A stretch of DNA of 64,000 nucleotides from Bacillota bacterium (lineage in GTDB: Bacteria; Bacillota; Clostridia; Lachnospirales; Bianqueaceae), in the NCBI GenBank assembly GCA_017441925.1, contig JAFRUE010000006.1, forward strand, positions 1 through 64,000, read 5' to 3'. Each line of letters begins with the position of its first letter. Position 1 is the stretch's first letter. Shown here one piece after another: positions 2,990 to 44,430 of this stretch. The position numbers and the translations under genes are program-made. The notes beneath the pieces are model-generated. The model did not search any database and was not told where the DNA came from. It worked only from the letters and a program-made list of their open reading frames with translations.

Positions 2990-3031
2990 AATGATTCTCC
3001 ATTTATTTTAAATAATCCTATTGCTTTTTTT

Positions 3032-3044
3032 ACACTGTTAGTGT
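3032..3044. promoter_or_regulatory. Small palindrome in the hsdM upstream region
   Basis: ACACT-GTT-AGTGT is a perfect 5-bp inverted repeat in the 104-nt gap before hsdM. On the minus strand it overlaps an AT-rich TATGATACACT stretch that could act as a -10 region. It could be an operator for hsdM, but it is short and may be chance. Confidence 0.25.
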
Positions 3045-3093
3045 ATCATATAATTGAACCACTGAAAAGATGAATATCTCGTAGGTGGTGTTT

Positions 3094-5169: not shown

Positions 5170-5219
5170 TCAACGTTTGCTGAACTGAGGAGCTCTGCGC
5201 GCGCCCTTGAGGCCGTACT
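5170..5219 (-). pseudogene. rpsI: Displaced 3' end of rpsI (ribosomal protein S9 tail)
   Basis: On the minus strand this stretch encodes [15 protein letters not shown] and a TGA stop. That is the S9 C-terminus with one change (Ala to Gly) from the intact rpsI at 44035-44430. The DNA outside the 13-bp core differs at many synonymous positions, so it is not a recent duplication. It has no upstream coding part: to its right the sequence turns into ICE DNA. It is the original host 3' end, pushed aside when the ICE integrated and supplied its own tail. Confidence 0.88.
5207..5219. other. attL core of the ICE
   Basis: TTGAGGCCGTACT is identical to 44072-44084 inside intact rpsI. On the minus strand it reads codons for the YGLK region of S9. 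Identity stops on both sides of this word, which marks the probable crossover segment. The left integrase gene ends 84 nt away. Confidence 0.8.
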
Positions 5220-5302
5220 CGGCCACCTAACTCCCGTTTTCCCAGTATTTACGCGGTTTTACGGGCTTTTGAGATTTTGTTCCCTAGAGTTTTAACCCAC
5301 CA

Positions 5303-6526
5303 TTAAGGCTCGGAATCTGTATCGTTTTGGGGCTCAGGAAACGCTGCGTTTACAACCTTTGCGAGTTCCCAGGGCTTATTATACTTCACTTTGGCGTAGA
5401 TATCCATGGTCACCTTGCTGTTTTCGTGGCCTGCAAGATACTGTACCGTCTTTGGATCTACACCGCTGGCGATCAGGTTCGTGATATATGTGTGTCTGAG
5501 TACATGAGGCGTTGTTGTAAAGTCCAGCGTATAAATGAGACTCTTTTTGGTCCTGCACCGCTCTCCCAGCTCTGGTTTGATCGTATGATGGATCCTCTCG
5601 CCGTTGATGTAACGATAGATTGTTCTTTCCTGCGTGCTTCTTGCCGGAATGTAATTCCACATACGATGAAACTGAGAATAGGAAAGTGGCTCTCCCTCAC
5701 TGTCAGCAATGACATAGTCCGAAATGCTCTTTTCCTTCTGTTCTCTCAGTGCAGTGACTAAAAGCTCCGGAATCGGAATGTCTCTTCGAGCTGCAGGTGT
5801 CTTCAGTACCGGAGTTACTGACGGCCGATTCTTTTCTGAACGCCATGCTCTTCTCACTGCAATATAAGGCACCGCAGCATCCAGAAATACACAGTCCCAT
5901 TTCAGTCCCAGGATTTCCTCTCTTCGGAGTCCTGCATAGAGTCCGAGAAGCACGAAAAGGTAAGGGGGAAGATCCTTTACGGTTGCAATCAGATCGCTCA
6001 CCTGGCGATCCGTGAGAGCAGGACGTTCCTTTGCCGGCTTTCCACCGCGAGGATTAATACCGGCTGACGGATTCTCCTGAATCACCTCACTTCGAAGTGC
6101 AGAGTAAAAGATACATTTTAACAGCATGTTTACGGAAGCATAGGTTGCAGAAGAAAGCTTCGAAACCGGTACCATCAGCATCTTCAGGTCATCTGCTGTG
6201 ACCTCATCGATATACTTGTCTCCAATCGCAGAAAGAATATGCTTTTCAATAGTTTTGCGGTATCCTGCAAGCGTGTTTTCTCTGATGGTAGCTGATTTCA
6301 TCAGCAGCCATTTCTCGCTGTAATCTCTGACCGTCGGATTCGCTTTTCGAAACTTCAGTTCTTCGATGGCCTTTCGGCCTTTCTCTGCTTTATTGTAGAC
6401 TTCTTCACAGGTTTTCCCGTAAAACGTCACCTGTTTGCCGTCTGCATCTACCATGCTCGTATAGTAATACATATGCCCCTTCTTCGTAACGGTATTATAC
6501 TGAGGGATCACTTTTTTCTTAGCCAT
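5303..6526 (-). CDS. Tyrosine recombinase / ICE integrase, left copy
   Basis: This protein of about 407 residues is a Tn916-type integrase with an N-terminal arm-binding domain, a SAM-like core-binding domain and a C-terminal catalytic domain. Numbered from the first of two adjacent ATGs, the catalytic residues are R202 (GLRREEI), H342 and R345 (PHVLRHTY), H368 (LAGHENS) and Y378 (MDIYAKV), so it should be active. The second ATG is preferred because AGGAGG lies 5 nt before it. It is the gene nearest attL. It is paralogous to the integrase just upstream. It should catalyse integration into and excision from rpsI, alone or with its neighbour. Confidence 0.93.
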   Translation of the reverse strand: MAKKKVIPQYNTVTKKGHMYYYTSMVDADGKQVTFYGKTCEEVYNKAEKGRKAIEELKFRKANPTVRDYSEKWLLMKSATIRENTLAGYRKTIEKHILSAIGDKYIDEVTADDLKMLMVPVSKLSSATYASVNMLLKCIFYSALRSEVIQENPSAGINPRGGKPAKERPALTDRQVSDLIATVKDLPPYLFVLLGLYAGLRREEILGLKWDCVFLDAAVPYIAVRRAWRSEKNRPSVTPVLKTPAARRDIPIPELLVTALREQKEKSISDYVIADSEGEPLSYSQFHRMWNYIPARSTQERTIYRYINGERIHHTIKPELGERCRTKKSLIYTLDFTTTPHVLRHTYITNLIASGVDPKTVQYLAGHENSKVTMDIYAKVKYNKPWELAKVVNAAFPEPQNDTDSEP

Positions 6527-6578
6527 CATATCCTCCTAAAAATATGGAGCGCAGGAATCTTTTCCGCGCCCCTTTGTG

Positions 6579-7817
6579 TTACTGCGCCACCGATTCATTC
6601 CACGCGTTGAATGTATCCTCCAACTGCAGAACTACGTCCTCCGGGCGGTTGTACTTTGCTTTCGCATAGATATCCATCGTGATCTTGCTATTCTCGTGGC
6701 CTGCCAGATACTGGACCGTTTTCGGATCCACAGAGGCATAAATCAGATTCGTGATATACGTGTGTCTCAGCTGATGCGGTGTTACTTCAAAGTCCAGCGT
6801 ATACACCACATGACCATTGTTCCTGGCTCTCTCTCCCAGTTTCGGATAAAGCATATACTTCACATATTTGCCACCTACTTTTTTCTTTGCTTTCCTTGGT
6901 AATGCAGTCCTGGTCTTGATGAACTTCCATAGCCTCTGAAACTGCGTGTATGTCAGAGGCCCGCCATCCCTGTTCGCGATCACATATACAGAGCGAGAAT
7001 TCTCCTTTGCTTCCTTAAGCGCCTCCGAGAGTCTCGGCGGGCAGGGGATATTGCGGTGTGCAGCCTTGGTTTTCAACTCGGTCAGAATAACCGGCTGATT
7101 GTTTTCCGTATGCCATGCTCTTCTTACTGTCAGATAAGGTGCATCGCAATCCAGATATACAGAGTCCCACTGCAGTGCGAGAATCTCTTCACGCCTTAAG
7201 CCTGCATATAGTCCCAGTAAAACAAACAGATAAGGTGGTAACCCCTTCGTCGCTTCGATCAGTTTTTCTGCCTGTTCATCTGTCAAAGGAATTCTTTCCT
7301 TCTGGGGGACACCGCCGTCCTCCGAAAGAAACACAGTCGGGTCCTTTTCGATAATCTTGCTCTCCATCGCGGATTTGAAGATACACTTATAAAGAACATT
7401 TACGGATTTGAATACTGACTTTGACTTTTTCCCGGCCGGGATGGTAGCCATTCGTATATCGTCCAGCGTCACATCCTGCATCTTCATATCCCCAAGAGGT
7501 TTGATGATGTAGTTTTTCACCTTAGATCGATAATCAATCATTGTTGTTTCCCGGCAGTTTGCGGATTTCATGAAAAGCCATTTTTCGCAGTATTCGCGAA
7601 CCGTGGGCGCTTCAACACCATAGATATGATTATCGATCTGATACTCAATCTTGCAGGCCTTTTCATAAAGTTCCTTCCTGGAAGGCGCATAAATAGCAAT
7701 CCTTTTCCCCTCATCATCTGTGATTCGTGTTCGGAAGTACTGATGACCATTGACGTTCACCGTCCCATACTTGGGAATCATGTTCATACGTCTGGTTGTG
7801 TGTTTCTTCTCAGCCAT
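6579..7817 (-). CDS. Tyrosine recombinase / ICE integrase, second tandem copy
   Basis: The 412-residue protein has the same architecture as the integrase 52 nt downstream and shares long blocks with it (LPPYLFVLLGLYAGLRREEI, HTYITNL, VQYLAGHENSK). Catalytic residues R208, H348, R351, H374 and Y384 are all present. AAGGAG lies 10 nt upstream of the ATG. The two copies differ mainly in the N-terminal arm-binding region and around residues 300-340. They may recognise different sites or work as a pair. The excisionase-like gene lies 14 nt upstream, so xis-int-int form one unit. Confidence 0.92.
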   Translation of the reverse strand: MAEKKHTTRRMNMIPKYGTVNVNGHQYFRTRITDDEGKRIAIYAPSRKELYEKACKIEYQIDNHIYGVEAPTVREYCEKWLFMKSANCRETTMIDYRSKVKNYIIKPLGDMKMQDVTLDDIRMATIPAGKKSKSVFKSVNVLYKCIFKSAMESKIIEKDPTVFLSEDGGVPQKERIPLTDEQAEKLIEATKGLPPYLFVLLGLYAGLRREEILALQWDSVYLDCDAPYLTVRRAWHTENNQPVILTELKTKAAHRNIPCPPRLSEALKEAKENSRSVYVIANRDGGPLTYTQFQRLWKFIKTRTALPRKAKKKVGGKYVKYMLYPKLGERARNNGHVVYTLDFEVTPHQLRHTYITNLIYASVDPKTVQYLAGHENSKITMDIYAKAKYNRPEDVVLQLEDTFNAWNESVAQ

Positions 7818-7831
7818 ATGTTACTTACTCC

Positions 7832-8056
7832 TTAACTGCGTCTTCTCCGGTAGGTTGGCCGTCCATCATCCGAGACCTTTACCTTATACGTATTCTTTGC
7901 GATGTATTCATCAATCGCATTCTCGGTAAAATAGACACAACCGTTTTCTACAAACTGCACATAGGCAATGGCTCCACTCTCCCTTGCCAGATCCAGGGTC
8001 TTAACGCTGATGCCTAAAAGCCTGGCTGCTTCTTTTCTGGTAATCAGATTCTGCAT
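7832..8056 (-). CDS. Excisionase-like helix-turn-helix protein
   Basis: The 74-residue basic protein reads LITRKEAARLLGISVKTLDL, the helix-turn-helix of MerR-like excisionases. A wing region (GAIAYVQFVENGCVYF) and an Arg-rich tail (RPTYRRRRS) follow. It sits immediately before two tyrosine integrases, the usual place for a recombination directionality factor in Tn916-type elements. It should bend DNA at the element ends and favour excision. The assignment rests on size, fold pattern and location. Confidence 0.8.
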   Translation of the reverse strand: MQNLITRKEAARLLGISVKTLDLARESGAIAYVQFVENGCVYFTENAIDEYIAKNTYKVKVSDDGRPTYRRRRS

Positions 8057-8116: not shown

Positions 8117-8356
8117 CTACCCATTCTGCCTCCTCCGCTCCATCATGCGATTTCGCACATTTTCATCATTTCGCATACTTGACTTTCTCGTAATGATGAA
8201 ATCATATCCCAGCCTGCAGCTGCAGTAGGTGCAGGGCTCTTTTTCCACCTGGTACGGATTCTTTCTTACAATCCGGTATTCCGGCATGTCATAAAATATG
8301 CCGGCACAGGACGCGCAGAGGCACAGCTCCATCTCCTGTGTTGATTTCTGTTGCAT
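8117..8356 (-). CDS. Small cysteine-rich protein of unknown function
   Basis: The 79-residue protein has paired cysteines LCLCASCAG and PCTYCSCRLGYDF, which could bind one zinc ion, and a basic tail (NRMMERRRQNG). Such small zinc-ribbon-like proteins are common near the recombination end of clostridial ICEs, but I cannot name a family. GAAAGGA lies close before the ATG. It stands between the excisionase and the sigma-like gene on the same strand. Confidence 0.6.
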   Translation of the reverse strand: MQQKSTQEMELCLCASCAGIFYDMPEYRIVRKNPYQVEKEPCTYCSCRLGYDFIITRKSSMRNDENVRNRMMERRRQNG

Positions 8357-8437: not shown

Positions 8438-8908
8438 TCACTCAGATTTTTTTATTTTTTTCCGGATTGTCTTAATACGTTGCGAAACGGAAGGCTGTGT
8501 AACTTTGAGCTCGATGCTGATTTCTGTCTGTGTCTGCTCCCGGAACGCGATTTTGTCAATCAGCAGAAGGTCTTCTTCGGAAAGCTGAAGTAGGGACTCC
8601 AGTAGAACCTCATCCTCGATCTCATCCAGCCACCAGAGCGGTCTGGTCTCATCCGGTTCCTGATTCACGGTCAGTTCATCCTCAAACTTATGAAGCAGCG
8701 GATTTTTTCCTTCCGCCTCCAGCTCGGTTTCAGGCATCAGCTGCTGTGTATGCCTGTTGTAAGCAATGTCTCTGTTAAACTGGTGCAGATCAAACTCGTA
8801 CATCTCCCGGATCTGCTCTTTCGTCATTCCCAAGGCTTCGTATTTCCTGCGAAGTTTTTCCTGTTCTTCTCTGAATCTCTTGCGTTCAAGGGCAAAATTG
8901 ATAGCCAT
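8438..8908 (-). CDS. Sigma-70 region 4-like DNA-binding protein
   Basis: The 156-residue protein has a charged coiled N-terminal half (RKRFREEQEKLRRKYEAL) and ends in a sigma region 4 helix-turn-helix (LSEEDLLLIDKIA...TQTEISIELKVTQPSVSQRIK). Region 2 is absent, so it cannot be a full sigma factor alone. Tn916-type elements carry similar small proteins that activate recombination and transfer genes. It follows a 300-nt structured gap and precedes the small Cys-rich gene, excisionase and integrases. A role in turning on this operon is inferred. Confidence 0.7.
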   Translation of the reverse strand: MAINFALERKRFREEQEKLRRKYEALGMTKEQIREMYEFDLHQFNRDIAYNRHTQQLMPETELEAEGKNPLLHKFEDELTVNQEPDETRPLWWLDEIEDEVLLESLLQLSEEDLLLIDKIAFREQTQTEISIELKVTQPSVSQRIKTIRKKIKKSE

Positions 8909-9004
8909 TTCGTAATCTCCTTTTGATTTTTTGGTTTTTGGTTGAACTCAAAAAATCCGGAGATTACGGGTATTTAGCTTCGTAGCAAAGCCACCGATAA
9001 AACA

Positions 9005-9041
9005 TAGGAGTCCTTTCCGCGAAACCGGGGAAGGACTCCTA
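9005..9041. other. Strong hairpin in the 8909-9227 gap
   Basis: TAGGAGTCCTT (9005-9015) and AAGGACTCCTA (9031-9041) form a perfect 11-bp stem. No clear T-run follows on either strand, so it is not a standard terminator. It may be a control RNA or a protein site upstream of the sigma-like gene. Confidence 0.5.
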
Positions 9042-9075
9042 ACACAGTACAAAGCTATTACTCGCGCAAATGAAA

Positions 9076-9148
9076 AAGCACCGCAGAATCGAATCAGAAG
9101 TACAGGTTTATATACCTGTTCTTTCTGGTTCGGCTTCGTACGGTGCTT
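9076..9148. other. Long imperfect palindrome of 73 bp
   Basis: The outer arms AAGCACCG/CGGTGCTT, a middle part pairing CGAATCAGAA with TTTCTGGTTCG, and the inner hairpin ACAGGTTTATATACCTGT nest into one extended structure. A short GTGATC-CTCA-GATCAC hairpin follows at 9164-9179. No gene is seen in 8909-9227. The structure could be a replication or transfer origin signal or a structured leader RNA. Confidence 0.55.
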
Positions 9149-9227
9149 GGTAGACTTCGATCCGTGATCCTCAGATCACAAAACCGGCTCCGCTTGCGCG
9201 ATTAAAAGTCGATGGTTATATTCAGTT

Positions 9228-9482
9228 TTATCTTCGTGGGGTACGTACACGCACTGTTCTGAACAATGCGGTATCAATGACCTCGTTAAACTTGCATTTG
9301 TTGCATTTGACCCTGGTGTAATGGTGGTCTCTGCCGTAAACGTCCAGCAGATAGAAGCCACAGACCGGGCACTTGATCTCGCGCTTCATCAGCTGCTCCG
9401 ATGCGGTTTTGCATCTTGCCAGCTTCTCTGCCACAACGGGGGTCATTTCATAGTGATATCGCTTTGAGCAGGTCTGCTGCAT
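9228..9482 (-). CDS. Small zinc-ribbon protein
   Basis: The 84-residue protein contains KCPVCGFYLL and VKCNKCKF, two CxxC pairs 22 residues apart that form a zinc ribbon resembling phage Com-type proteins. The N-terminus has a short helical part. Its start overlaps the ImmA-type gene's stop by one base (TGATG), so the two are coupled. Function is unknown; binding of RNA or DNA is likely for this fold. Confidence 0.65.
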   Translation of the reverse strand: MQQTCSKRYHYEMTPVVAEKLARCKTASEQLMKREIKCPVCGFYLLDVYGRDHHYTRVKCNKCKFNEVIDTALFRTVRVRTPRR

Positions 9483-10204
9483 CAGCGTTCACCGCCTTCC
9501 GTCCTGAATCTGGAAAGATACTGTTCGATCGGCTTCATGTCGATCAAATCCAGTTCCTTCAGCCGGTTGAACATCGGGCTGTAATTCACGCCCATCGCAT
9601 CCGCCATTCTCTGAACCAGATCCTTCTGATCTTGAGACATCACATATCCGTCATAGGCGATCACCTTGTTCCCGGCGTTGTACTTCTTCAGTACTCTCAA
9701 CATCAGAAATCTGGGCATCAGGAAGCAGGCCGCCGCTCTGTTGGCAAATGATTCCGTAATGGACATCATTTCCCTCAGCATGTCCTGTGAGTAATTCATG
9801 GCTCCGTCGAACTCACTGTGAAACGCGGCCTGCGACTGCGCAGGTACGTGCCTGTCGATTACAAAGTGAGCTCCTTCATGGGCAATGGTAAAGCGCCGCT
9901 TGCCCTGTTCATAGGGTTTCTTCAGGAAACTCTCGATAACAATGGTCCCTGCCGGGAAGACTACCTGTACCTTCGTGTTGCCACGATGAACCCAGAGCGG
10001 TCTTTTGCCGTCGGAGATGAAACCGATCCTTCCCGGATCCGGTTCCGCAAAGCTTTCATAGACGATCGGAATTCCCAGGTATTCCGTGACAAAGGCTTCG
10101 ATATCGACGCAGTGGGAATTGGTGTAATGCTTACGCCGCATAAAATCCTTTATCATGGCTTCACAGAGGTTTTCGATCTCGTCATAAGTAGTGAACTTCT
10201 TCAC
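9482..10204 (-). CDS. ImmA/IrrE-type metallo-endopeptidase
   Basis: The 240-residue protein has the zinc-protease motif HEGAH at residues 109-113 (FTIAHEGAHFVIDRH) in a COG2856/DUF955 fold. Members such as ImmA of ICEBs1 cleave a repressor and so induce an ICE. Here the nearby candidate partner is the LexA-like repressor two genes upstream. Genes on both sides are tightly packed on the same strand. Whether it cuts that repressor or another protein is not shown by the sequence. Confidence 0.88.
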   Translation of the reverse strand: MKKFTTYDEIENLCEAMIKDFMRRKHYTNSHCVDIEAFVTEYLGIPIVYESFAEPDPGRIGFISDGKRPLWVHRGNTKVQVVFPAGTIVIESFLKKPYEQGKRRFTIAHEGAHFVIDRHVPAQSQAAFHSEFDGAMNYSQDMLREMMSITESFANRAAACFLMPRFLMLRVLKKYNAGNKVIAYDGYVMSQDQKDLVQRMADAMGVNYSPMFNRLKELDLIDMKPIEQYLSRFRTEGGER

Positions 10205-10219
10205 TCCCTACACCTCCAT

Positions 10220-10444
10220 TCAAGCCATCACATACCAATCGTGATTGACTCTGTAAATATATTTTTCCGCACTACCGATCAGAATCGTGTAGCGAATTCC
10301 TTCAAACTCACCGGTACAGGAGCTGCTGTAGTACAGCACTCTGGATACGTCACAGCTTTGACCATCTTCAAATGTAATCACTTTCGGGACGGATTCTCCG
10401 TCATGGTCTGCCTCACACTCTACCTTTACGGGTATTCTTTTCAC
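10220..10444 (-). CDS. Conserved hypothetical protein between lexA-like and immA-like genes
   Basis: The 74-residue protein (KRIPVKVECEADHDGE..., GIRYTILIGSAEKYIY, DHWYVMA-like end) looks like a compact beta-rich domain. Similar short proteins sit beside error-prone polymerase or LexA-type genes in Firmicutes, but I cannot assign a family name. It lies 10 nt after the LexA-like gene and 15 nt before the ImmA-like gene, in the same transcript. Confidence 0.6.
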   Translation of the reverse strand: MKRIPVKVECEADHDGESVPKVITFEDGQSCDVSRVLYYSSSCTGEFEGIRYTILIGSAEKYIYRVNHDWYVMA

Positions 10445-10454
10445 TTAATCTCTC

Positions 10455-11069
10455 CTATAGATCCTTTAATACTTTCTTGGCCACTCCCTGAACCACAAGT
10501 TCGTTCACAATTATGGTTTTTCCGGGATACTTATTCTCATTCATATATTCGAGGATTGCCTGATGGTCCTCATTGAAACCGCCAAACTTCTTCAAGGTAT
10601 TCTGGTTCATGTCGTCCAGCGCGACAACGACATCTCCAACTGCTGCTGTTTTCTGCGAACGGATCACGATCAGATCGCCCTCTTCGATTCCGGCGTCTTC
10701 CATGGAATCGCCGGTCGCCTTTAACAGATAATACTCTCCCTTTCCGAACAGAGCCTCCGGAAGTCCAATATACATCTCTACCTGCTCTTCCTCTGTTTCC
10801 GGATTACCGCAGTTAATGCTGCCGACTAGGGGGGCGGAGATAAAGTCTGTCGGTGTCTTTTTGATCTTTGGCAGGTCATCCAAGATGCCGTTCCGGTAGG
10901 AAAGCATGCCCTTCTCGTCCATCTCCACCAGGTAACCATGCGCTGTCGATGTGGAGATTCCCATAGCCTTCGCTATGACCCGTATCGTAGGAGACTCATA
11001 ATTGTGTCTGTAATACTCTCCTACAAAATCACGGATCTTTTCCATTAACTCTGGATTCTTCCTTCTCAT
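10455..11069 (-). CDS. LexA-like self-cleaving repressor (S24 peptidase)
   Basis: The 204-residue protein has an N-terminal winged helix like LexA (SPTIRVIAKAMGISTSTAHGYL) and a C-terminal S24 domain. The catalytic Ser is S122 (GDSMEDAG) and the Lys is K160 (TLKKF). The expected cleavage site is Cys87-Gly88 (GSINCG) rather than the usual Ala-Gly. RecA-stimulated self-cleavage after DNA damage would remove it. It heads the control operon of the ICE and has a palindromic operator just after its -10 box, so it very likely represses itself. Confidence 0.88.
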   Translation of the reverse strand: MRRKNPELMEKIRDFVGEYYRHNYESPTIRVIAKAMGISTSTAHGYLVEMDEKGMLSYRNGILDDLPKIKKTPTDFISAPLVGSINCGNPETEEEQVEMYIGLPEALFGKGEYYLLKATGDSMEDAGIEEGDLIVIRSQKTAAVGDVVVALDDMNQNTLKKFGGFNEDHQAILEYMNENKYPGKTIIVNELVVQGVAKKVLKDL

Positions 11070-11103
11070 GACAACACCTCGACTTTCTCTCCAAGCTCTA
11101 TCC

Positions 11104-11118
11104 CGAACATCTTGTTCG
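11104..11118. promoter_or_regulatory. LexA-type operator
   Basis: CGAAC-ATCTT-GTTCG is a perfect palindrome with the half-site of the Gram-positive LexA box. The spacer is 5 nt, one more than the usual 4. It lies between the -10 box at 11127 and the start of the LexA-like gene at 11069, where a bound repressor would block transcription. Confidence 0.8.
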
Positions 11119-11126
11119 TGATTATC

Positions 11127-11155
11127 ATTATACGCTTAGCGATTTCACAAAGCAA
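11127..11155 (-). promoter_or_regulatory. Promoter of the LexA-like control operon
   Basis: On the minus strand TTGCTT (11150-11155) and TATAAT (11127-11132) are 17 nt apart. The start would fall close to the palindromic operator. A separate palindrome (GTTGACG...CGTCAAC, about 11180-11201) lies upstream of the -35 box. Confidence 0.78.
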
Positions 11156-11212: not shown

Positions 11213-11655
11213 GTAAGTGCTCCATAGTGAGTACTGGTTAACAAAAATGCCGCTCTAAATAGAACGGCATATAACAAACTTGATCATGCTTTCTTTTTTC
11301 TGCAAGCTTCCGGAAGAGTTCGCGACCATGGCAGCAGGTCATCCAGAAATGCAGGATCTTCAAACTCCCCATGCTTCGGAAGTTCTTCTAACAAATAACG
11401 GAAGTATTCATACGGCTTCAGATCATTCGCTCTCGCCGTCTCCGCTATAGAGTATGCGATGGCACTGGACTGCGCTCCGCTGACTGTATCGATCAGATAC
11501 CAGTTGTGCTTACCCAAACAGAAAGTCCTGATTCCACGTTCTGCCGCATTGTTATCAATCGGAACATAAGGATCTGTCACAAAGACTTTCAGGTAGGGTT
11601 CCTGGTTCAATGCATACTGGATCGCTTTCCCTGTTCCGGATTTCGGAGCTATAAA
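11213..11655 (-). pseudogene. IS66-family transposase fragment (C-terminal part)
   Basis: About 120 C-terminal residues remain (ALNQEPYLKVF, PIDNNAAERGIRTF, YEYFRYLLEELPKHG), closely matching the tail of the complete copy at 13739-15370. The frame is cut off near 11655 in non-homologous sequence. The downstream insertion-sequence end (GTAAGTGCTCCAT, from 11213) is kept. So one end and the last quarter of the transposase survive. It is in the same orientation as the full copy and may come from recombination or deletion of an older insertion. Confidence 0.85.
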
Positions 11656-13666: not shown

Positions 13667-15442
13667 GTAAGTGCTCCATTACGAGTACTGGGTAACAAAT
13701 AATGCCGTCCCAGGTAGAACGGCATATAACAAACTTGATCAGGCTTTGGTTTTTCTGCAAGCTTCCGGAAGCTTTTCCGACCATGGCAGCAGATTGTCCA
13801 GGTACTCCGGACCTTCAAACTCTCCATGTTTCGGAAGCTCTTCCAGCAGATATCGGAAGTATTCATAGGGCTTCAGGTTATTCGCTCTGGCTGTCTCTGC
13901 TATGCTGTAAGCAATGGCACTGGCCTGTGCGCCACTGACAGTATCGATCAGATACCAGTTATGCTTGCCCAGGCAGAAAGTGCGAATTCCGCGTTCGGCC
14001 GCGTTGTTGTCGATTGGAACATACGGATCTTTCAGGAAGACTTTCAGGTATGATTCCTGATTTAGCGCATACCGAATCGCATCCCCTGTTTTGGCTTTTG
14101 GAGCTATGGGAATCTGCTGTTCCTTCAGGTATGCGAAGAAAGCGTCCACCAGAGGAGCACACTGTTTCTCTCGGAATGATTGTCTTTCTTCTGGAGATTT
14201 GTCTTCACAAAGCTTCTCGTAGCGATACAGCATCTGTATGATCTGCAAAGCTTTGTATGCGACTGTCTCCTGAATCCTGGGATCGTCTTTCGGTGAGGCT
14301 TTGATAACATCTGCGAATCCTCTCCGGACGTGTGCCCAGCACCCCGCCACCGTCAGGTCATCCCTTTCTTTGTCGATCGAGTGATAGACCTGGAATCCAT
14401 CGGTGACGCAATAACCCTTGTATCCCTTCAGAAACTCCCGGGGATGGTCGCTTTTCCGGGTCTTCTGATAATCATACAGGACGAAGGGGTTGGACTCCAG
14501 TGCCCCTGACCGGTATACCCACATATAGCTCTTGGCTCCCGCAGCACGTCCGTCCTTCCTTACTTCTACCGGTGTCTCATCCGCATGGATGACATGATAG
14601 GCAGAGAGCTTTTCTTTCAGCCTGTCATAAATCCGTTTCAGATACCGGTCGGAGCATTCATTCACCCATCGACAGACGTTCTGCACAGGAATATAGACTT
14701 CCTGGCGTTTGAACTCCTCAACGATTCGGTTGATCGGCTGAGAGTTGACAAACTTGTAGTTGTATACTCCTGCCAGCAGGGACGGTGTTGCGATACTGTT
14801 CCTCAGAAGATCCGCCGGTCTGTCCGCACGGACGATCGCCTTTTCTCCTTCTCCGGCGTAGACAGCTACATGATGTTCGATCACCTCAAAGCTTGCCGGA
14901 TGAAACTCCAGGCGTTTATAAACCTCATCGGGAAGCCGTTTGTATTTACCATCGGGGAATGCGGCCAGAAGTTCTTCATCGCTTAGCGTATGTTCTTCGA
15001 CCCGGACAGGAAGATCCTTTAAGCTTTCTTCCCGCTTACCTTTCTGTTTCCGGCCTCTTTTATAGGGCTTTGGACAGATCTCCTCGAATTCGGGTTCTTC
15101 TATTCCCGGATTCAGGTCGAAGACAACTTCCGACTCGTTGAATGCGATATGCAGCTGGTCGGTGACATCTGTCAGACTCTGCTCTGTTTTTCGTCCAAAG
15201 CGATCCGCTCGAAGAGAACGGACTTCTTCCGTCAGAAGATCGATCTGTTTAGTCAGCCCTTCGCTGGTTTTCTGCAAGGATTCCAGAGAAGCATGTGTTG
15301 CCATAAGCATCGTGATCAATGTTTGTTTGTCAAGGTTCTCAAGGTCGTTCCTGCTTAATCCTTCTGCCATGTTTTATGCCTCCCTTCCTTTGCTTTACTG
15401 CCTGATAGTATAGCATAAATGGCTTGTTTTAGCCACTTGTAA
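13667..15442 (-). mobile_element. IS66-family insertion sequence, single-gene type
   Basis: It spans about 1.78 kb around one transposase gene. The ends are GTAAGTGCTCC near 13667 and CCACTTGTAA near 15433-15442, which pair imperfectly as terminal inverted repeats. The small tnpA and tnpB genes of classical IS66 are not seen, as in the ISBst12-like group. Exact ends and target duplication could not be fixed by eye. Confidence 0.7.
13739..15370 (-). CDS. tnpC: IS66-family transposase TnpC
   Basis: The 543-residue protein has a coiled-coil N-terminus (ASLESLQKTSEGLTKQIDLL), a zinc-binding linker region and a DDE core. Acidic catalytic positions are suggested by HADETPVEV, YCVTDGFQVYH and IDNNAAERGIR, the last carrying the conserved Glu. 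Length and domain order are complete, so it may be functional. A second, broken copy of its tail lies at 11213-11655 in the same orientation, bracketing the TetR/NTF2 cargo. Confidence 0.92.
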   Translation of the reverse strand: MAEGLSRNDLENLDKQTLITMLMATHASLESLQKTSEGLTKQIDLLTEEVRSLRADRFGRKTEQSLTDVTDQLHIAFNESEVVFDLNPGIEEPEFEEICPKPYKRGRKQKGKREESLKDLPVRVEEHTLSDEELLAAFPDGKYKRLPDEVYKRLEFHPASFEVIEHHVAVYAGEGEKAIVRADRPADLLRNSIATPSLLAGVYNYKFVNSQPINRIVEEFKRQEVYIPVQNVCRWVNECSDRYLKRIYDRLKEKLSAYHVIHADETPVEVRKDGRAAGAKSYMWVYRSGALESNPFVLYDYQKTRKSDHPREFLKGYKGYCVTDGFQVYHSIDKERDDLTVAGCWAHVRRGFADVIKASPKDDPRIQETVAYKALQIIQMLYRYEKLCEDKSPEERQSFREKQCAPLVDAFFAYLKEQQIPIAPKAKTGDAIRYALNQESYLKVFLKDPYVPIDNNAAERGIRTFCLGKHNWYLIDTVSGAQASAIAYSIAETARANNLKPYEYFRYLLEELPKHGEFEGPEYLDNLLPWSEKLPEACRKTKA

Positions 15443-18762: not shown

Positions 18763-21102
18763 TTAATCCTCCTGCCCTGCAAAGATGCCTTCTCCCGGTC
18801 TGGTCGTCATCAGCTGATACAGCTTGGTGTCCTTCGGGAACCGGTTTACAAAAGGCACCAGCGACCCGCCGTACTTGATCAGTCCGCAGCCGGGATCGGC
18901 GTTGGTAATATAGCTCATCTGTTCCTGAGAGATGTTCAGAAGCTTCGCCAGCTCCTCACGGTCCGATGCCGCCTGGTTCAGCATCACGATGAACTCAGAA
19001 TTGGAAAGCATCGTGCTGGCCTGTACGGAATCCAGCAGGTACTCCACGTTCTGGGTGATGGCTGTCGGGTAGGCATTTCTCTTACGGAACTGTCTCCAGG
19101 CAGAATTGAAGAACTGTGCGGAGAACTCATTTTCAAACACCACATGGAACTCATCGATAAAGACGTGGGTGCGCTTGCCTCTCTTCCAGTTCAGCGTTAC
19201 TCGGTTCAGCATGGTATCGGTGATCACCAGAAGGCCGGTGGGCTTCAGCTGTGCTCCCAGACCATGAATGTCGAAGACAACCACTCTCTTGTCCAGATCT
19301 ACATTGCTCTGCTTGCCGAAGATATCCAGCGAACCGGTGGTATAGAGCTCCAGAGACAGAGCGATCTGCTTTGCCTCCGGCTCCGGCTGCGAGAGCAGCT
19401 TCTCTCTCAGCGTGCTGAGTGTAGGGATCGTGGCCATCTCGTAGGCCTCTTTGTAGACCTGCGCGATACAGCGGTCGATGATGGACTTGTGTTGCGGTCC
19501 CACGCCCTTCTTGTCGATCTGCTCGATCAGGGACATGATGAACTCCGACTTCACCACGATCGGATTGTTTTCTCCGTAGCCGTCCACCATATACATGGCG
19601 TTCAGACGGTCTTTTCCTCCGGCAGATACACGGATCACCGATCCAAGATCCCCCATGGCTTCCACCAGAGGCGCATATTCACCTTCAGGATCGCACACCA
19701 GGATATCGTCGTCCGTATTCAGGATCAGGAACGCGATCAGTTCCTTCACGCTGAAGGACTTGCCGGAGCCCGGAACGCCCAGCACAAAAGCAGACTGGTT
19801 CAGCAGGTTCTCCTTGTTGCACATGATCAGGTTATGGGAAATGGCATTTTCACCGAAGTAGATGCCGCCCTTGTCCATGATCTCCTGCACCTTGAAGGGA
19901 ATAAATACTGCCAGGCTCTCCGTGGTCAGGGTGCGGAAGGCATTGATCTTTCGGGAGCCAAAGGGAAGTATAGTATTCAGCCCGTCGATCTGCTGATATC
20001 TCAGCACCGCCATCTGGCTCATCCCCTTGCGGGCAGCCGACAGGATCGCTTCCGTGGTCTGATCCAGTTCCTTCAGGCTGTCTGCCGTGATCACCATCGT
20101 CAGCACCGCATAGTACATTCTCTGGTCACGGGTCGTAAGATCGTCCAGGAACTCCTTGGTCTCTTTGCGCTGCAGATCCATATCGTAGGGAACCACAGCA
20201 CTGAAGTTGTTGTTCTGATTCTGTCTTCTCTGCCAGTTGGTGATATTCGTCTCCACACCCAGCAGACGGTTCTCCACGTCACGGACAGCCTCGTCCGTAG
20301 GGATCGGGATGATGTCAACGGAAAGCATCATGTTGCGGCTGAGCTCTGTCAGCTCCGCCACAAAGCTGTCCTTGATATAGTTGGCGTAATCCTTCAGATA
20401 CAGGATTCTTGCAAAGCGGTCTCCAATCATCAGGTGATCCGTCTTGTTTACGATGCTGTCCGGGCAGATATAGTCCTTGAAGTCATGGCCCTTTCTTGCT
20501 GCATCATGGATATCAAAGGCAAATGAACTCTCTTCGCCGGCATGATAGAAATCATGGATCACCTTCAGACGCTCCTGCGAGGACATGGGCGTGCATTTGG
20601 CTCCCAGCGCTGCAAAATGCGCGGTCAGTTCCACCTCCATACGGGCAAAATAGCTTCTGGCCTCTTCCACATCCTTCTTTCCGACAGTGATGGTCACGTA
20701 TTTCTCCTGCAGGATGCCATTGGCGTTCATCGCCTTGTCCAGAATCACCTTGTTGTATTCATCCCTGTATTCGTTCAGTCCGTCTGCCTTTTCCTTCATC
20801 AGCACGGAGCCTTCAAAGTCCGCCCGGTTCATACGGTAATTATTGATGGTGATCTTGGTACAGGCACCGGTATCCAGGCTGTTCAGGAGCTCCGAATAGG
20901 TGAGGAACATGCTCTCCTTATCTTCCTTGCTGGCCACCAGATAGTTGATATCCCTGAACTTCCAGCTCTTGGTGAACTTATTGCCCACCAGGAAGATTCC
21001 GTCCGTCCAGATTCGTTTAATGGGAATCACATCCTGCACCGTTTTCGGGACCTTATAGCGCTCCTTATCGGTCTTCAGGATATTACTGACTGATTTCATC
21101 AT
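18763..21102 (-). CDS. VirB4-like conjugation ATPase
   Basis: The 779-residue protein has Walker A GVPGSGKSFS and Walker B HVFIDEFHVVF in the C-terminal RecA-like domain, as in VirB4/TraE and Tn916 Orf16. It powers assembly of the type IV secretion channel at the inner face of the membrane. The N-terminal 400 residues match the VirB4 N-domain in length. It starts within the last 20 nt of the PrgI gene, so the two are coupled. Confidence 0.93.
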   Translation of the reverse strand: MMKSVSNILKTDKERYKVPKTVQDVIPIKRIWTDGIFLVGNKFTKSWKFRDINYLVASKEDKESMFLTYSELLNSLDTGACTKITINNYRMNRADFEGSVLMKEKADGLNEYRDEYNKVILDKAMNANGILQEKYVTITVGKKDVEEARSYFARMEVELTAHFAALGAKCTPMSSQERLKVIHDFYHAGEESSFAFDIHDAARKGHDFKDYICPDSIVNKTDHLMIGDRFARILYLKDYANYIKDSFVAELTELSRNMMLSVDIIPIPTDEAVRDVENRLLGVETNITNWQRRQNQNNNFSAVVPYDMDLQRKETKEFLDDLTTRDQRMYYAVLTMVITADSLKELDQTTEAILSAARKGMSQMAVLRYQQIDGLNTILPFGSRKINAFRTLTTESLAVFIPFKVQEIMDKGGIYFGENAISHNLIMCNKENLLNQSAFVLGVPGSGKSFSVKELIAFLILNTDDDILVCDPEGEYAPLVEAMGDLGSVIRVSAGGKDRLNAMYMVDGYGENNPIVVKSEFIMSLIEQIDKKGVGPQHKSIIDRCIAQVYKEAYEMATIPTLSTLREKLLSQPEPEAKQIALSLELYTTGSLDIFGKQSNVDLDKRVVVFDIHGLGAQLKPTGLLVITDTMLNRVTLNWKRGKRTHVFIDEFHVVFENEFSAQFFNSAWRQFRKRNAYPTAITQNVEYLLDSVQASTMLSNSEFIVMLNQAASDREELAKLLNISQEQMSYITNADPGCGLIKYGGSLVPFVNRFPKDTKLYQLMTTRPGEGIFAGQED

Positions 21103-23060: not shown

Positions 23061-23402
23061 TCATCCCACGATCAGGTTCAAGATCTCTTTGGCGAAGGTG
23101 ATGATGACGCCGCCCGCCAGCGTCAGGAAGCCGTTGGATCGCTGAGAAGGATCGTGACTCTGGAAGGACAGGCCCACCTGGACGATGCCCCAGCCCAGCA
23201 GGATCAGACCAACCGCACGGATCAGTCCGAAGATGAAATCACTCAGGTTGTTCACGACCTCGATGGGATCTCCGTCCGCTGCAAAGGCAGTCACGCCAAG
23301 CGCCGTCATCATGGTGACGGCCAGCACTAGTACAGCGTAAAAGCGGAAGCCCTTCTTGACCTTCGCGGGAACCATGGTTTTGTTACTGTTTTTCTTGTTC
23401 AT
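23061..23402 (-). CDS. Maff2 family mobile-element membrane protein (VirB2-like)
   Basis: The 113-residue protein has a signal-like helix ending in TAFA (AVLVLAVTMMTALGVTAFA) and two further hydrophobic helices (FIFGLIRAVGLILLGWGIVQ and LTLAGGVIITFAKEILNL). This is the layout of Maff2 proteins and resembles small VirB2-like pilins. It overlaps the end of the coupling protein gene by 20 nt. It probably forms part of the transfer channel or a surface filament. Confidence 0.85.
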   Translation of the reverse strand: MNKKNSNKTMVPAKVKKGFRFYAVLVLAVTMMTALGVTAFAADGDPIEVVNNLSDFIFGLIRAVGLILLGWGIVQVGLSFQSHDPSQRSNGFLTLAGGVIITFAKEILNLIVG

Positions 23403-25215
23403 TCTGATATTCCTCCATTTTCTTATTGATCATTTCCTCCATCTCCTCTTCGGTGAAGATCAGGAAGTCATGACTTGCGATATTGGTAAGTTCTTTTTTG
23501 TCACCCTCGCTCATCGGCTCATAGGTGACGGATGCAATACTGAGGAGATCCTCGCCGTGTCTATAGGCTTCGGTTCCTCCGTCGGTAGTGAGGGCCACGT
23601 TTGGATGATGAAGGATGTCGTATTTCAGATCCTTCACGGGCCGCTCGCCTCGTATAAAAAGAAGTGCGTAGCGGTTGTCCAGCATACGCACTTCGTCCGG
23701 TGTCAGCAGCTCTCTTCCGGTAAGCTGCCAGTTGGTGGAATAGTTCCCGTTCCGGCCACGAGACTGTCCGTAGGTGTTCATGTCGATGGTTTCCTTGCCC
23801 AGAAGCTTGGAGACATATTCATGGGTGGACTGTTCATTGCCGCCCAGATACAGAAACTCATCGCAGTTGCCCACGATGCTCTCCCACTGTTTCTCAAACA
23901 GAGCCTTCAGCTGCGCCAGATTCTGGATGATGATCGAGACCGAAATCTCACGGGATCGCATGGTCGAGAGGAGCTTGTCAAACTCGTCCGGCAGGGCCAC
24001 ATTTGCAAATTCATCCATGACAAAGTGCACATGCACCGGAAGCCTGCCGCCGTGCACGATATCCGCCTGGTAATAGAGCTGCTGAAAGAGCTGCGTATAG
24101 AGCATTCCCACCAGGAAATTGAACGAGCTGTCGTTATCCGGGATCACGGCAAAGATGGCCGATTTCTTTTCTCCCACATTGGCCAGATCCATCTCATCAA
24201 ACTGAGTGATGCCAGCCAGCGACTCCAGATTGAATTTCTCCAGTCTGGACATCAGCGTGATCTGAATCGACTTCAGGGTCTTTCCTGAACCGGAATGATA
24301 GCTGCGGTAATACTTCAGCGCGATATGCTCCGGATTGCGGATCTCCAGCTTCTCAAACAGGATATCCAGAGGGGACTGGTATTCCTCGTTGTCCTCCTTC
24401 ACATCACCGGCCCGGATCATGTCCATAACCATCGAAAAGTTCTGCTCCTCCGGCGGTGCTTCATAGTGCAGATAAAAGATCAGCGCCAGAAGCAGCATCA
24501 TGGCCGCCTGATCCCAGAAGGGATCCTGGCTCTGTGAGCCCTTGGGCGTTGTGTTCTTGAACAGATTCGTGACCAGCCGCTGGATATCGTTGTCGCTCTT
24601 CAGATAGACAAACGGGTTGTAGCAATGGCTCTTCTCCATATTGATGAGATCAAGCACCCGTATATCATAGTTTTTTGCCTTCAGAAGGTTCCCCGTATCC
24701 CTCAGCAATTCCCCTTTCGGATCGAGCACTATAAAGCTGCAATTGGCATTCATGATATTCGGTTTGGCAAAGAACCGGGTCTTGCCGGCACCAGGTCCGC
24801 CGATGATCAGCGTATTCAGATTTCTTCGATGCTTTCGTCCGTCCAGACCGATGGCAACATTCTTCGTCAGCACCTTGTTATCCGTGAATACCGGAGCCGC
24901 ATATCTTTTGTTGACCTGCAGGGCATTGCCCCATTTGGCGGAACCATGCTCTTCGCGTCGCCTGTAATTCCGGTCATTGGACAGGTAGATGCCGATTCCC
25001 AGTCCATATGCTAAAAGCAAAATGAGGACAGTTTTCAGGCTGTCCTCACAAAGCTCGATATGAAACGGATGGCTCATGATCTCTCCGAAGTTTCGGATGA
25101 TTCCTGCCAGGCCATCACCGGCTGCGGGTGCGATCAGAAGCCCGATCCAGACCACCGGCAGAGCGCCGCAGACATACAGGATGATATGCTCCCTCGAAGT
25201 TTTATCGTCCCTCAC
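23383..25215 (-). CDS. Type IV coupling protein (VirD4/TraG-like)
   Basis: About 610 residues from the GTG at 25215, chosen because GAGG lies just upstream; a longer ATG frame has no such site. Two N-terminal membrane helices are followed by Walker A (GGPGAGKTRFF) and Walker B (VHFVMDEFANV), then the DNA-translocase domain of VirD4/TraG. It links the relaxase-DNA complex to the secretion channel. It overlaps the preceding small gene by 14 nt. Confidence 0.93.
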   Translation of the reverse strand: MRDDKTSREHIILYVCGALPVVWIGLLIAPAAGDGLAGIIRNFGEIMSHPFHIELCEDSLKTVLILLLAYGLGIGIYLSNDRNYRRREEHGSAKWGNALQVNKRYAAPVFTDNKVLTKNVAIGLDGRKHRRNLNTLIIGGPGAGKTRFFAKPNIMNANCSFIVLDPKGELLRDTGNLLKAKNYDIRVLDLINMEKSHCYNPFVYLKSDNDIQRLVTNLFKNTTPKGSQSQDPFWDQAAMMLLLALIFYLHYEAPPEEQNFSMVMDMIRAGDVKEDNEEYQSPLDILFEKLEIRNPEHIALKYYRSYHSGSGKTLKSIQITLMSRLEKFNLESLAGITQFDEMDLANVGEKKSAIFAVIPDNDSSFNFLVGMLYTQLFQQLYYQADIVHGGRLPVHVHFVMDEFANVALPDEFDKLLSTMRSREISVSIIIQNLAQLKALFEKQWESIVGNCDEFLYLGGNEQSTHEYVSKLLGKETIDMNTYGQSRGRNGNYSTNWQLTGRELLTPDEVRMLDNRYALLFIRGERPVKDLKYDILHHPNVALTTDGGTEAYRHGEDLLSIASVTYEPMSEGDKKELTNIASHDFLIFTEEEMEEMINKKMEEYQNEQEKQ

Positions 25216-25390
25216 GGTCTCGCCTCTTTTCTTTGGCAGGCGGAGCGTCAATCACCTTCATGATCAGATCTTCAACGTCCTCCAGAGGCTTGTCCTGCCT
25301 CTTCAGACCGTTCTTGAATTCGACCAAGCCATTGACCATGAGATGCTGTTCGAAGCTGTCCAGAGTCACTACTACTTTCTGACTGCTCAT
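25202..25390 (-). CDS. Small conserved conjugation-operon protein
   Basis: A protein of 62 residues (MSSQKVVVTLDSFEQHLMVN, then GLVEFKNGLKRQDKPLED and a charged tail). The ATG at 25390 follows AAGGAGG at 7 nt, an ideal site. It sits directly before the coupling protein gene and overlaps it. Similar short proteins occur at this position in Tn1549-type elements. The role is unknown; helping the coupling protein or relaxosome is a guess from location. Confidence 0.75.
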   Translation of the reverse strand: MSSQKVVVTLDSFEQHLMVNGLVEFKNGLKRQDKPLEDVEDLIMKVIDAPPAKEKRRDREGR

Positions 25391-26309: not shown

Positions 26310-27097
26310 TACGATCTTTCCTCCTTTTTCGGTCTGTTACGTTTTCTCTTTGGCGGCCTATGCTCATTGGTCTGCTGCCGCTCCCTGGTCTTGGAATCGC
26401 CTGCCTTACTCTTCTGTTCCCGGCGGATCTCTTCCAGCTGCTTTTTCACAGACGGCCGGCGCTCAGGCTCCTCAGAAGCGTCCCTTGCGATAGGCGATTT
26501 CCTCTTTGAGGAAGGCTCGGACTGACGGGACCTGGCAGTCCGGCCCTCGGTGGGGTTTGTATTCTGAGTTTCCTCCCTGGTCGGGTTCTTTTTCAGCGCC
26601 TCATCCAGGAAGGCATCCACCTTTTCCTGATGCGTCATAGCGCGGTCCGGTGCTTCCGGCTGTTCGCCCTTACCGCGCTCTGCCCGGTTCCGCTCGATCT
26701 CTGCCTTTACAGAGCCCATGTCCACCGTTGCCAGCTTGAACCTTTCAAAGATACGGTTGATCTTACTGGCATCCTCCGCACGGACCATGATATCGGTCAG
26801 ACCGTCATCGGCGTCACGATCCTTCAGGACCGTATACAGTACGCCGTACTTCTTGGCCTCCGTACAGAACCGCTGAAGATCCGTGTCCTTTACGGCAAAT
26901 ACCTTCAGCTCCTTGCCGGAGCGCAGCATGTTGGTAAGGCGAATCTTGCCTCTGGTCTTGTGCTGATCCTTCAGCACCGCATACAGCAGAATCGCCAGCT
27001 GCTTGGCTCCGGTTCCTGCCAGCTTTACCGCCACCTCAGCGCCTTCCAGGCTCATTCTCACGACCTGTTCGGCCGCGTCCCCTGAATAACTGCTCAT
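26309..27097 (-). CDS. PcfB family conjugation protein
   Basis: About 262 residues from the ATG at 27097 (AAGGAGG 9 nt upstream). The N-terminal half (EQVVRMSLEGAEVAVKLAGT, AILLYAVLKDQHKTRGKIRL) is the DUF3801/PcfB domain, which in pCF10 helps bring relaxase to the coupling protein. The C-terminal third is highly charged and low in complexity (PPKRKRNRPKKEERS), probably a flexible nucleic-acid-binding tail. The start lies 62 nt inside the end of the relaxase gene. The stop overlaps the ArdC-like start by one base. Confidence 0.88.
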   Translation of the reverse strand: MSSYSGDAAEQVVRMSLEGAEVAVKLAGTGAKQLAILLYAVLKDQHKTRGKIRLTNMLRSGKELKVFAVKDTDLQRFCTEAKKYGVLYTVLKDRDADDGLTDIMVRAEDASKINRIFERFKLATVDMGSVKAEIERNRAERGKGEQPEAPDRAMTHQEKVDAFLDEALKKNPTREETQNTNPTEGRTARSRQSEPSSKRKSPIARDASEEPERRPSVKKQLEEIRREQKSKAGDSKTRERQQTNEHRPPKRKRNRPKKEERS

Positions 27098-28487
27098 GGG
27101 ATTGTTCCTCCTTTCCATTTCTCTCTATCTGTTCTTCGGGCAGTTTTCGGAGCTCTTCCGCCATCAGCGCGGATCGCTCCTCGATGCCGTCACAAAGCTT
27201 CAGATCCTTTCTGATTCTTGTCATCTCAGCCGTAGTCTCTGATATCTTCTCACTGATTCGTTCTGTCTCCTCGGGATCTCCGGCACGGACTGCTCTCCTG
27301 CGAGCATTTCTCAGCGCCCTTCTTTGCCTTTCAAGGCTCTGCAGGCTGTCCTGAGCCTCTTCCTGAAATGTGTGAAGATCCTCCAGTGTATCGATGTCAT
27401 GCTCTCCCAGAAACCTTGTCTGGGCATCCAGCCGTTCCAGATGGATCAGATCCTCACGCATAAAAAAAGACACCCGCTTTACGGATGCCGGATGCTTTTC
27501 AATGATATGAAGTTCAAAGCAGTATCGGATATACAGGGCATGCAGGCCGGTTGTTTTTGTTTGCGGCCGATTTTGCGTTCGATACGCTCGGACCGCTTCC
27601 TGTTCATCAGCAGGGAAGGGAAGCTGTCTCCGATAATTGTTTGCGATTCTCTGCCGGATCTGCTCCAGCGTGTACTCTTCGCCTCCCAGCTTATGAAACC
27701 GGAAAAAGCCTTTGGCTCCTGGAGGCTTTAGTGCCGGATACTTCAATGGCCTTCCGCTTTCGGTATAGAGCTTCATCTCATAACCCATCTGTTCCAGATT
27801 GTGGAAGAATTCCCGATCCGTCATGGAAGCTTTGATCGCGCGGTCGATGTCATCCCGGATCAGGCTCCGATTAGTCGGCTTACCGTTCTTTTCAGCCAGA
27901 TACTCGCCGTAGTTACGGCCCCGACCCAAAGGCTCCTCGATGACAGAGATCCGATACTCCAGACACAGCCGGTCAGACTCCCGCTTCATCGCCTGATAGT
28001 CTGCAGGGGAGTTAAAGAACTTATGTCCGTCGATCAGAGATACAGGATTAAGAACGAAATGATTATGATAATGATCGGTATTACAGTGGGTAGCAATCAC
28101 CACCTCATATTCATTTCCCCATAATCTCTCCGCCAGCTTAACGCCGATTTCGTGTGCCGTCTCCGCATTTACCTCGCCTTCGGGGAAGGATTGATATCCG
28201 TGATAGCAGACCCGTCCGGAGGTTTTGTCCATGCCTGTAATCTGTGACCAGAGACGTTTCGTTTCCATAAACTGCTGTGCTGCGTGCTCCTCTGTACAGT
28301 TCAGGCAGGTGACATACGCCCGTCGTTCCGTCTTCATCTCATCCGCCGCATACTCCACCACTCCATCGATGGCATGCAGCTGTGCCAGGTCATTATGAAC
28401 CGTTTCGACCGTCTTCTCCGGATTCCTTGCATAGTTGATGACCTTATCAACCCGGCCCTTGATCGGCCACATGGATGTGACTGCCAT
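27036..28487 (-). CDS. Relaxase, MobA/VirD2 (MOBP-like) family
   Basis: The 483-residue protein carries a candidate nicking tyrosine Y19 (KVINYARNPEKT) and the metal-binding histidine cluster H134, H139, H141, H143 (THCNTDHYHNHF). These nick one strand at oriT and stay attached to it during transfer. The C-terminal half is helical and charged. Its ATG shares a base with the mobC stop (TGATG). A hairpin-rich candidate oriT lies about 450 nt upstream. Confidence 0.94.
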   Translation of the reverse strand: MAVTSMWPIKGRVDKVINYARNPEKTVETVHNDLAQLHAIDGVVEYAADEMKTERRAYVTCLNCTEEHAAQQFMETKRLWSQITGMDKTSGRVCYHGYQSFPEGEVNAETAHEIGVKLAERLWGNEYEVVIATHCNTDHYHNHFVLNPVSLIDGHKFFNSPADYQAMKRESDRLCLEYRISVIEEPLGRGRNYGEYLAEKNGKPTNRSLIRDDIDRAIKASMTDREFFHNLEQMGYEMKLYTESGRPLKYPALKPPGAKGFFRFHKLGGEEYTLEQIRQRIANNYRRQLPFPADEQEAVRAYRTQNRPQTKTTGLHALYIRYCFELHIIEKHPASVKRVSFFMREDLIHLERLDAQTRFLGEHDIDTLEDLHTFQEEAQDSLQSLERQRRALRNARRRAVRAGDPEETERISEKISETTAEMTRIRKDLKLCDGIEERSALMAEELRKLPEEQIERNGKEEQSHEQLFRGRGRTGRENEPGRR

Positions 28488-44034: not shown

Positions 44035-44430
44035 TTATCGCTTCGAGAACTGGGGTGCGCGACGTGCGGCTTTGAGGCCGTACTTCTTACGCTCTTTCAT
44101 ACGAGGGTCACGGGTAAGCAGTCCCGCTCTCTTCAGAGGAGCACGCATGGTCTCGTCGACTTCCAGAAGGGCTCTGGAGATGCCGTGACGGATCGCTCCG
44201 GCCTGGCCGGTGTAGCCGCCGCCGACGACGTCAACGCGTACGTCGTACTTGCCTTCCGTCTCAGTTACAGAGAAAGGCTGACGAACGATATTCTTAAGGA
44301 TCTCAGTGCCGAAATATTCATCAAGCGGCTTCTTGTTGACAATGATCTCGCCGTTTCCGGGAGTCAGATATACACGGGCAACGCTGGTCTTTCTTCTTCC
44401 GGTTCCGTAGTACTGAACTGTCATCTTCAT
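44035..44430 (-). CDS. rpsI: 30S ribosomal protein S9
   Basis: The 131-residue protein matches S9 along its length ([34 protein letters not shown]) and ends RRAPQFSKR, the tail that reaches the ribosomal P site. The gene is second in the rplM-rpsI unit. The last 12 codons (44035-44071) lie inside the ICE, so the present gene is a host-element hybrid. The protein sequence is kept intact, which explains why integration is tolerated. Confidence 0.97.
44072..44084. other. attR core of the ICE inside rpsI
   Basis: TTGAGGCCGTACT is identical to 5207-5219. It encodes part of YGLK near the S9 C-terminus. Bases to the left (44035-44071) are element-derived; bases to the right are host rpsI. Confidence 0.8.

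Follow-up and report, generated by a model that had tools for sequence, protein, structure and literature searches.

In ICESt1 and ICESt3 a cI gene adjoins a metalloprotease gene while ImmR is encoded separately, and in 2011 they were said to be alone among characterised elements in having repressors of both types (PMC3234194). Elsewhere, autocleavage of a repressor and its removal by a distinct protease are presented as alternative routes (PMC6872733). The classical substrates of ImmA proteases are XRE repressors and not LexA-type proteins (PMC6540685, PMC6872733). The cI-metalloprotease operon of ICESt1/ICESt3 is the nearest precedent of the switch analysed here, which lies in a 64,000-nt stretch of a Bacillota genome (contig JAFRUE010000006.1, hereafter the window). 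No LexA-type repressor paired with an ImmA gene and no 5-nt LexA-type spacing were found described in the open-access literature, a negative that is weak evidence of novelty because it covers open-access texts only.

Analysis of the minus strand of the window showed a control operon (9482-11155) that encodes, in order from the promoter, a LexA-family S24 repressor (204 aa), a 74-aa protein and a protease of the M78 type; the last of these genes is overlapped by one for a Zn-ribbon protein (Table 1). The sequence-only reading had seen two induction principles joined in this operon, and both enzymes were recovered with intact catalytic residues, Cys87-Gly88, Ser122 and Lys160 in the S24 domain and HEGAH in the M78 protease; the 74-aa ORF, the Zn-ribbon gene and the leader RNA were absent from that reading. 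The locus is probably best explained as an ICE control operon with LexA-type autorepression, self-cleavage upon DNA damage, protease feedback and an operator set apart by its spacing.

Table 1. Features of the control operon, its promoter and the surrounding ICE in the window
Feature	Position	Strand	Basis
-35 element TTGCTT	11150..11155	-	sequence; 17-nt spacer to -10
-10 element TATAAT	11127..11132	-	sequence; relatives with matching -10/operator layout
Putative operator ATCnCGAAC-N5-GTTCGnGAT	11100..11122	.	unique in window; covariation with recognition helix
LexA-like repressor, probable winged HTH + S24	10455..11069	-	domain and LexA-structure matches
Conserved 74-aa ORF	10220..10444	-	homologues in L005, L018, L096
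ImmA/IrrE-type (M78) metalloprotease, H109-E110-x-x-H113, E151	9482..10204	-	domain and fold matches
Small Zn-ribbon-like protein (CxxC...CxxC)	9228..9482	-	start overlaps protease stop
Leader RNA with terminator hairpin (model R1)	9029..9208	-	conserved; no Rfam match
Second hairpin GGAGTCC...GGACTCC and SD-pairing hairpin (GGAG with CTCC)	8908..9042	-	sequence
Sigma-70 region-4-like protein	8438..8908	-	profile score below curated cut-off
79-aa ORF	8117..8356	-	related ORFs in L088-L090, L094
Excisionase-like HTH_17 protein	7832..8056	-	domain match
Tyrosine integrase 1	6579..7817	-	domain match; 65% identical in L092
Tyrosine integrase 2	5303..6529	-	50% identical to integrase 1
Diverged rpsI 3'-end copy, left junction	5170..5223	-	last rpsI codons
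VirB4/TraG-like ATPase	18763..21102	-	scan of ICE ORFs
VirD4 coupling protein	23383..25251	-	scan of ICE ORFs
MobA/VirD2-type relaxase	27036..28487	-	scan of ICE ORFs
rpsI (ribosomal protein S9), right junction in 3' end	44035..44430	-	sequence comparison

The label of ICE given to the region earlier was borne out by the relaxase, VirD4, VirB4, integrase and xis genes lying between an rpsI 3'-end copy and rpsI itself. The element is about 38.9 kb in size, sits in the 3' end of rpsI and also encodes a NikA-like protein, a sortase, a CHAP protein, ArdC and ParA/ParB, the two tyrosine integrase genes being in tandem. The rpsI 3' end is duplicated in diverged form (5170-5223 and 44035-44088), and the offset of the left copy was exactly that of a GC-rich hairpin common to both junctions. 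Just beyond the left junction are HsdM-like methylase, DUF3800 and Fic genes (840-4940, minus strand), and a pemK RNA (Rfam RF02913; 43274-43331, minus strand) adjoins ParA at the right end. On the upstream side of the control promoter are an IS66 transposase gene (13739-15370, minus strand) and a fragment nearly identical to the IS66 C-terminus (11284-11610, minus strand), the two being separated by a TetR gene.

The repressor matched Pfam Peptidase_S24 (E 3e-18) and showed the Cys/Ala-Gly site, Ser and Lys of an S24 domain, with Cys87-Gly88, Ser122 and Lys160 invariant in 14 of 14 aligned sequences. Over its full length it matched LexA structures, including Thermotoga LexA 3k2z (E 5e-33; Foldseek 3e-14). 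Its score for TIGR00498, the NCBIfam lexA equivalog, was 96.4 bits, under the curated cut-off of 110.95, and its N-terminus reached 21.1 bits against the LexA winged-HTH PF01726 (cut-off 23.7), an N-terminal Pfam score that was not accepted on its own as proof of LexA membership. Identity with the host LexA was ruled out, since the host lexA gene is on another contig, its product scores 239.5 bits for TIGR00498 (239 vs 96 bits) and its promoter carries a 4-nt box. The recognition helix of the window repressor (TSTAHG) nevertheless resembles that of host LexA (TSTVHG). The AF2 model of the repressor contains no dimer and is uninformative on the preferred spacing.

The closest chromosomal relatives directly precede a Y-family polymerase gene (L004, L006, L007, L008, L010 and L016), so the repressor of the ICE is of a type common to damage-tolerance operons; a search of viral contigs found no relative. 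This gene order, together with a Cys-Gly site like that of UmuD, would also fit a family that mainly regulates translesion-polymerase operons and that serves the ICE as a borrowed SOS sensor beside an incidental or decayed protease. Such a reading was considered very unlikely, as the protease retains its active-site residues and the cassette is conserved across families together with integrases.

The sequence-only reading had placed a perfect CGAAC-N5-GTTCG palindrome just past the -10 element, and CGAAC-ATCTT-GTTCG (plus strand, 11104-11118) was confirmed there as the sole exact match in the window. The full palindrome, ATCnCGAAC-N5-GTTCGnGAT, is longer than had been noticed and has a single match in the window at up to 3 mismatches. 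The genome scan for the 5-nt-spaced site that had been proposed earlier gave four further exact copies of the core in the 2.7-Mb host genome, all within open reading frames, while the nearest other matches to the full operator had 2 mismatches. Two CGAAC sites on contig 11, considered as a sign of another element, were dropped because both lie in ordinary genes. The site at 11100-11122 thus looks like a single-copy operator, and as no other copy of the complete operator exists in the host genome, its regulon is probably limited to the control operon; a 5-nt-spaced site that is single in the genome does not appear to be the 4-nt SOS box of a multi-gene regulon. No second operator was found within the ICE, so that control of the transfer genes would need the control operon or other means.

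The relatives examined comprised 16 close homologues in a collection of genomes, to which searches of the order and the class added about 40. In nearly all LexA-like relatives a palindrome was found just 3' of the -10 element, mostly with 5-nt spacing, and its commonest form was TATC-n-(variable)-C-N5-G-(variable)-n-GATA. The half-sites differed by lineage (TAAGC, AAAGC/GAAGC, GGAAC, CCAAC, GCAAC and CGGAC), and CGAAC was exclusive to the window member. Recognition helices and half-sites went together, RGT(A/V)YK with (A/G)AAGC, KTT(A/V)YR with (A/G)GAAC, KST(A/V)HS with CGGAC, and TSTAHG with CGAAC. After control for the remaining protein sequence, similar helices still predicted similar half-sites (partial r=0.53, p=0.0005 by permutation), and the similarity of the rest of the protein had a predictive value of about 0 (p 0.81). 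Pairs less than 50% identical elsewhere shared 69% of helix residues when they had the same half-site vs 36% for the others, a comparison that includes only five same-site pairs. The placement of the palindromes and their covariation with the helices are strong evidence that these sites are the operators of these proteins, and there is likewise strong evidence that the window palindrome is the operator of its LexA-like repressor. The promoters of L060, L062 and L063 carry a long inverted repeat (TATCCGCGACA / TGTCGCGGATA type) whose arms flank the promoter, one upstream of -35 and the other downstream of -10, whereas other members have compact operators.

The textbook Firmicutes LexA box is CGAAC-N4-GTTCG. 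That the window site has 5 nt where 4 is usual, as had been claimed, stood insofar as the 5-nt spacing is a family trait and the host box has 4 nt; the box at the host lexA promoter is AGAAC-ATTT-GTTCT, so that AGAAC-N4-GTTCT and not CGAAC-N4-GTTCG is the host's own form. CGAAC-N4-GTTCG occurs once in the host genome, at an ORF start. Among the labelled rows of the repressor tree, 38 had 5-nt and 9 had 4-nt spacing (host LexA counted in), and spacing was clustered on the tree (2 changes vs 8.5 for shuffled labels), where the labels were set by hand, nine rows were left unlabelled and near-copies inflate the clustering. Labelling by hand was used because automatic -10 detection misplaced a few promoters (e.g. 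L008, L045, L046, L059). Exact GAAC-N5-GTTC was present in 8 of 51 promoters (0.05 expected) and exact GAAC-N4-GTTC in 10 of 51 (0.04 expected). Own sites with 4-nt spacing were found in a separate branch (L079, L081-L083, L085) and in the ImmA-bearing L038-L040, whose site resembles the host box; spacing alone is therefore not a general rule.

Host-type GAAC-N4-GTTC boxes were observed over the core promoter of six relatives (L049, L056, L057, L061, L086 and L087), at positions -69 to -77 relative to the start codon, mostly besides and apart from the family's own site. This suggests that these six promoters are under two LexA-type repressors. L086 and L087 have both AGAAC-N4-GTTCT and AGAAC-N5-GTTCT in one promoter, and the natural reading of two-spacing promoters would be that host LexA acts on the 4-nt box and the repressor of the element or operon on the 5-nt box. 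Only the 5-nt site is present in the window promoter. Most relatives differ from host LexA in half-site as well as spacing; in the window, helix and half-site are near those of host LexA, which leaves the spacing (and the outer arms) to separate the two. The GAAC half-site core common to both, the near-identical helix and the host-type boxes of several relatives would suit a window promoter that host LexA also, or even mainly, controls, with a 5-nt spacing that does not insulate. This was judged unlikely given that the window promoter lacks a 4-nt box and that the host-type boxes of the six relatives are separate sites. The comparison indicates that the wider spacing is real and conserved, and it may keep the ICE and host LexA systems apart.

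The protease showed HEGAH at residues 109-113 and thus the HExxH and third ligand of M78 proteins, HExxH being present in all four aligned relatives and Glu151 invariant; its nearest folds were IrrE 3dti and the PprI-ssDNA complex 8sln. It was present in nine of 391 class genomes. Of 12 further module loci that were searched, 11 had a Zn-ribbon homologue after the protease (tblastn gave no match in L097), and the cassette of LexA-like, ImmA and Zn-ribbon genes followed by a structured leader RNA recurs in other Clostridia. L092 and L093 have the order of the window, namely LexA-like gene, protease, Zn-ribbon, leader, sigma-like gene (L092), xis and two integrases, with integrases about 65% (L092) and 54% (L093) identical to integrase 1.

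The LexA-like gene precedes the ImmA gene in 7 of the 8 loci with a readable upstream side. The exception, L098 (G103), has an ImmA/Zn-ribbon pair without a LexA-like gene upstream, which means that the protease may have another substrate. The LexA-like protein could then control only the expression of the protease, which would cut another protein, such as a repressor encoded elsewhere by the host or by a different element, and the two enzymes would act one after the other on two targets. This cascade was regarded as rather unlikely, and it was kept at that level because of L098 and of the known M78 substrates being XRE proteins; against it, besides the 7 of 8 gene order, no XRE repressor was found among the scanned ICE ORFs (small ORFs partly covered).

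A conserved leader RNA fills the gap from the Zn-ribbon gene to the sigma-like gene and has a 5' arm (UAAUCGnGnAA), a 3' arm and, as terminator, the hairpin GC(A/G)CCGUA...CGG(U/C)GC-U-run, in which one to a few pairs show compensatory changes. As an unscored reading of the alignment, pairing is possible between the 3' arm and the 5' arm, and between GCUU(Y)GUAC, downstream of the U-run, and the 5' arm of the terminator. The Rfam search at gathering threshold gave no match to it. The model was found in 10 of 382 class genomes, eight at ImmA cassettes. The leader is conserved in the window and in L088, L089, L091-L094, L096, L099 and L005. The host genome has a second copy that is weaker (L124 9560-9775; G000:C1 about 17560-17775); it is preceded by a promoter with the SOS-like box GGAACATATGTTTG and followed by MobC-like and integrase-like genes. 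Downstream of the leader, the hairpin CCGTAATCTCC...GGAGATTACG (8908-8972, minus strand), similar in L088, L089 and L091-L094, would mask the ribosome-binding site ahead of the sigma-like gene.

In the favoured reading of the control operon, the ICE repressor would bind ATCnCGAAC-N5-GTTCGnGAT, recognised by comparison, over its own operon start and repress it. DNA damage would form RecA filaments, upon which the repressor, to judge from its intact catalytic residues, would cut itself at Cys87-Gly88. The freed promoter would yield more ImmA-type protease, which would most likely cut leftover and newly made repressor and so turn a brief signal into a committed switch. Transcription would then run via the structured leader RNA into the sigma-like, xis and int genes and lead to excision, while the 5-nt spacing and the outer ATC/GAT arms, on comparative grounds, would keep the site apart from the 4-nt SOS boxes of the host. 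For two intact enzymes under one operator, the simplest reading is that an autoregulated repressor cleaves itself upon damage and that more protease then clears what is left of it; the first half draws on established LexA biochemistry and the intact residues, and the second on gene order and the known ImmA/MpaR systems (PMC6872733, PMC6540685).

A wider generalisation is offered only tentatively, and we lean against it at present: mobile elements of Clostridia would use a LexA-derived family in which spacing (5 vs 4 nt) and a swappable helix form a code separating element and host SOS circuits, and one repressor would be the target of both self-cleavage and an ImmA-type protease in a feedback switch. 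The switch of the window would illustrate how a mobile element could run on the DNA-damage signal of the host yet avoid the sites of the host repressor. The relatives provide a natural series for tests of what determines LexA specificity, since helix, half-site and spacing are known for about 50 pairs of repressor and operator, and both inactivation routes in one operon would give a clear test of why elements retain both.

Compared with known systems, the window repressor shares with LexA, the SOS repressor, the fold and the catalytic residues, and with host LexA also a near-identical recognition helix and the half-site core; it differs in its 5-nt instead of 4-nt spacing, its sub-cut-off score, its apparently single-site regulon and its location on an ICE. 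UmuDAb of Acinetobacter (PMC4807011) is likewise a UmuD-related S24 protein whose N-terminal domain represses damage-inducible genes, but it belongs to another organism with other targets, is not on an ICE and has no described protease partner. The IrrE/PprI-DdrO system of Deinococcus has the M78 protease fold and a repressor cleavage linked to damage, whereas IrrE is the longer protein and acts on DdrO, a substrate of XRE type. ICESt1/ICESt3 (cI arp1 and orfQ, ImmR arp2; PMC3234194) are ICEs with an autopeptidase-type repressor gene beside an ImmA-like metalloprotease gene, and their excision is stimulated by DNA damage; their cI has an XRE HTH and they carry the second repressor ImmR, whereas in the window the repressor belongs to the LexA type, with a probable winged HTH, and no XRE repressor was found among the scanned ORFs. 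ICEBs1 (PMC6540685) also has, on an ICE, a repressor gene followed by an M78 protease gene, but its ImmR is an XRE protein without an S24 domain, whereas the window repressor has its own predicted self-cleavage centre.
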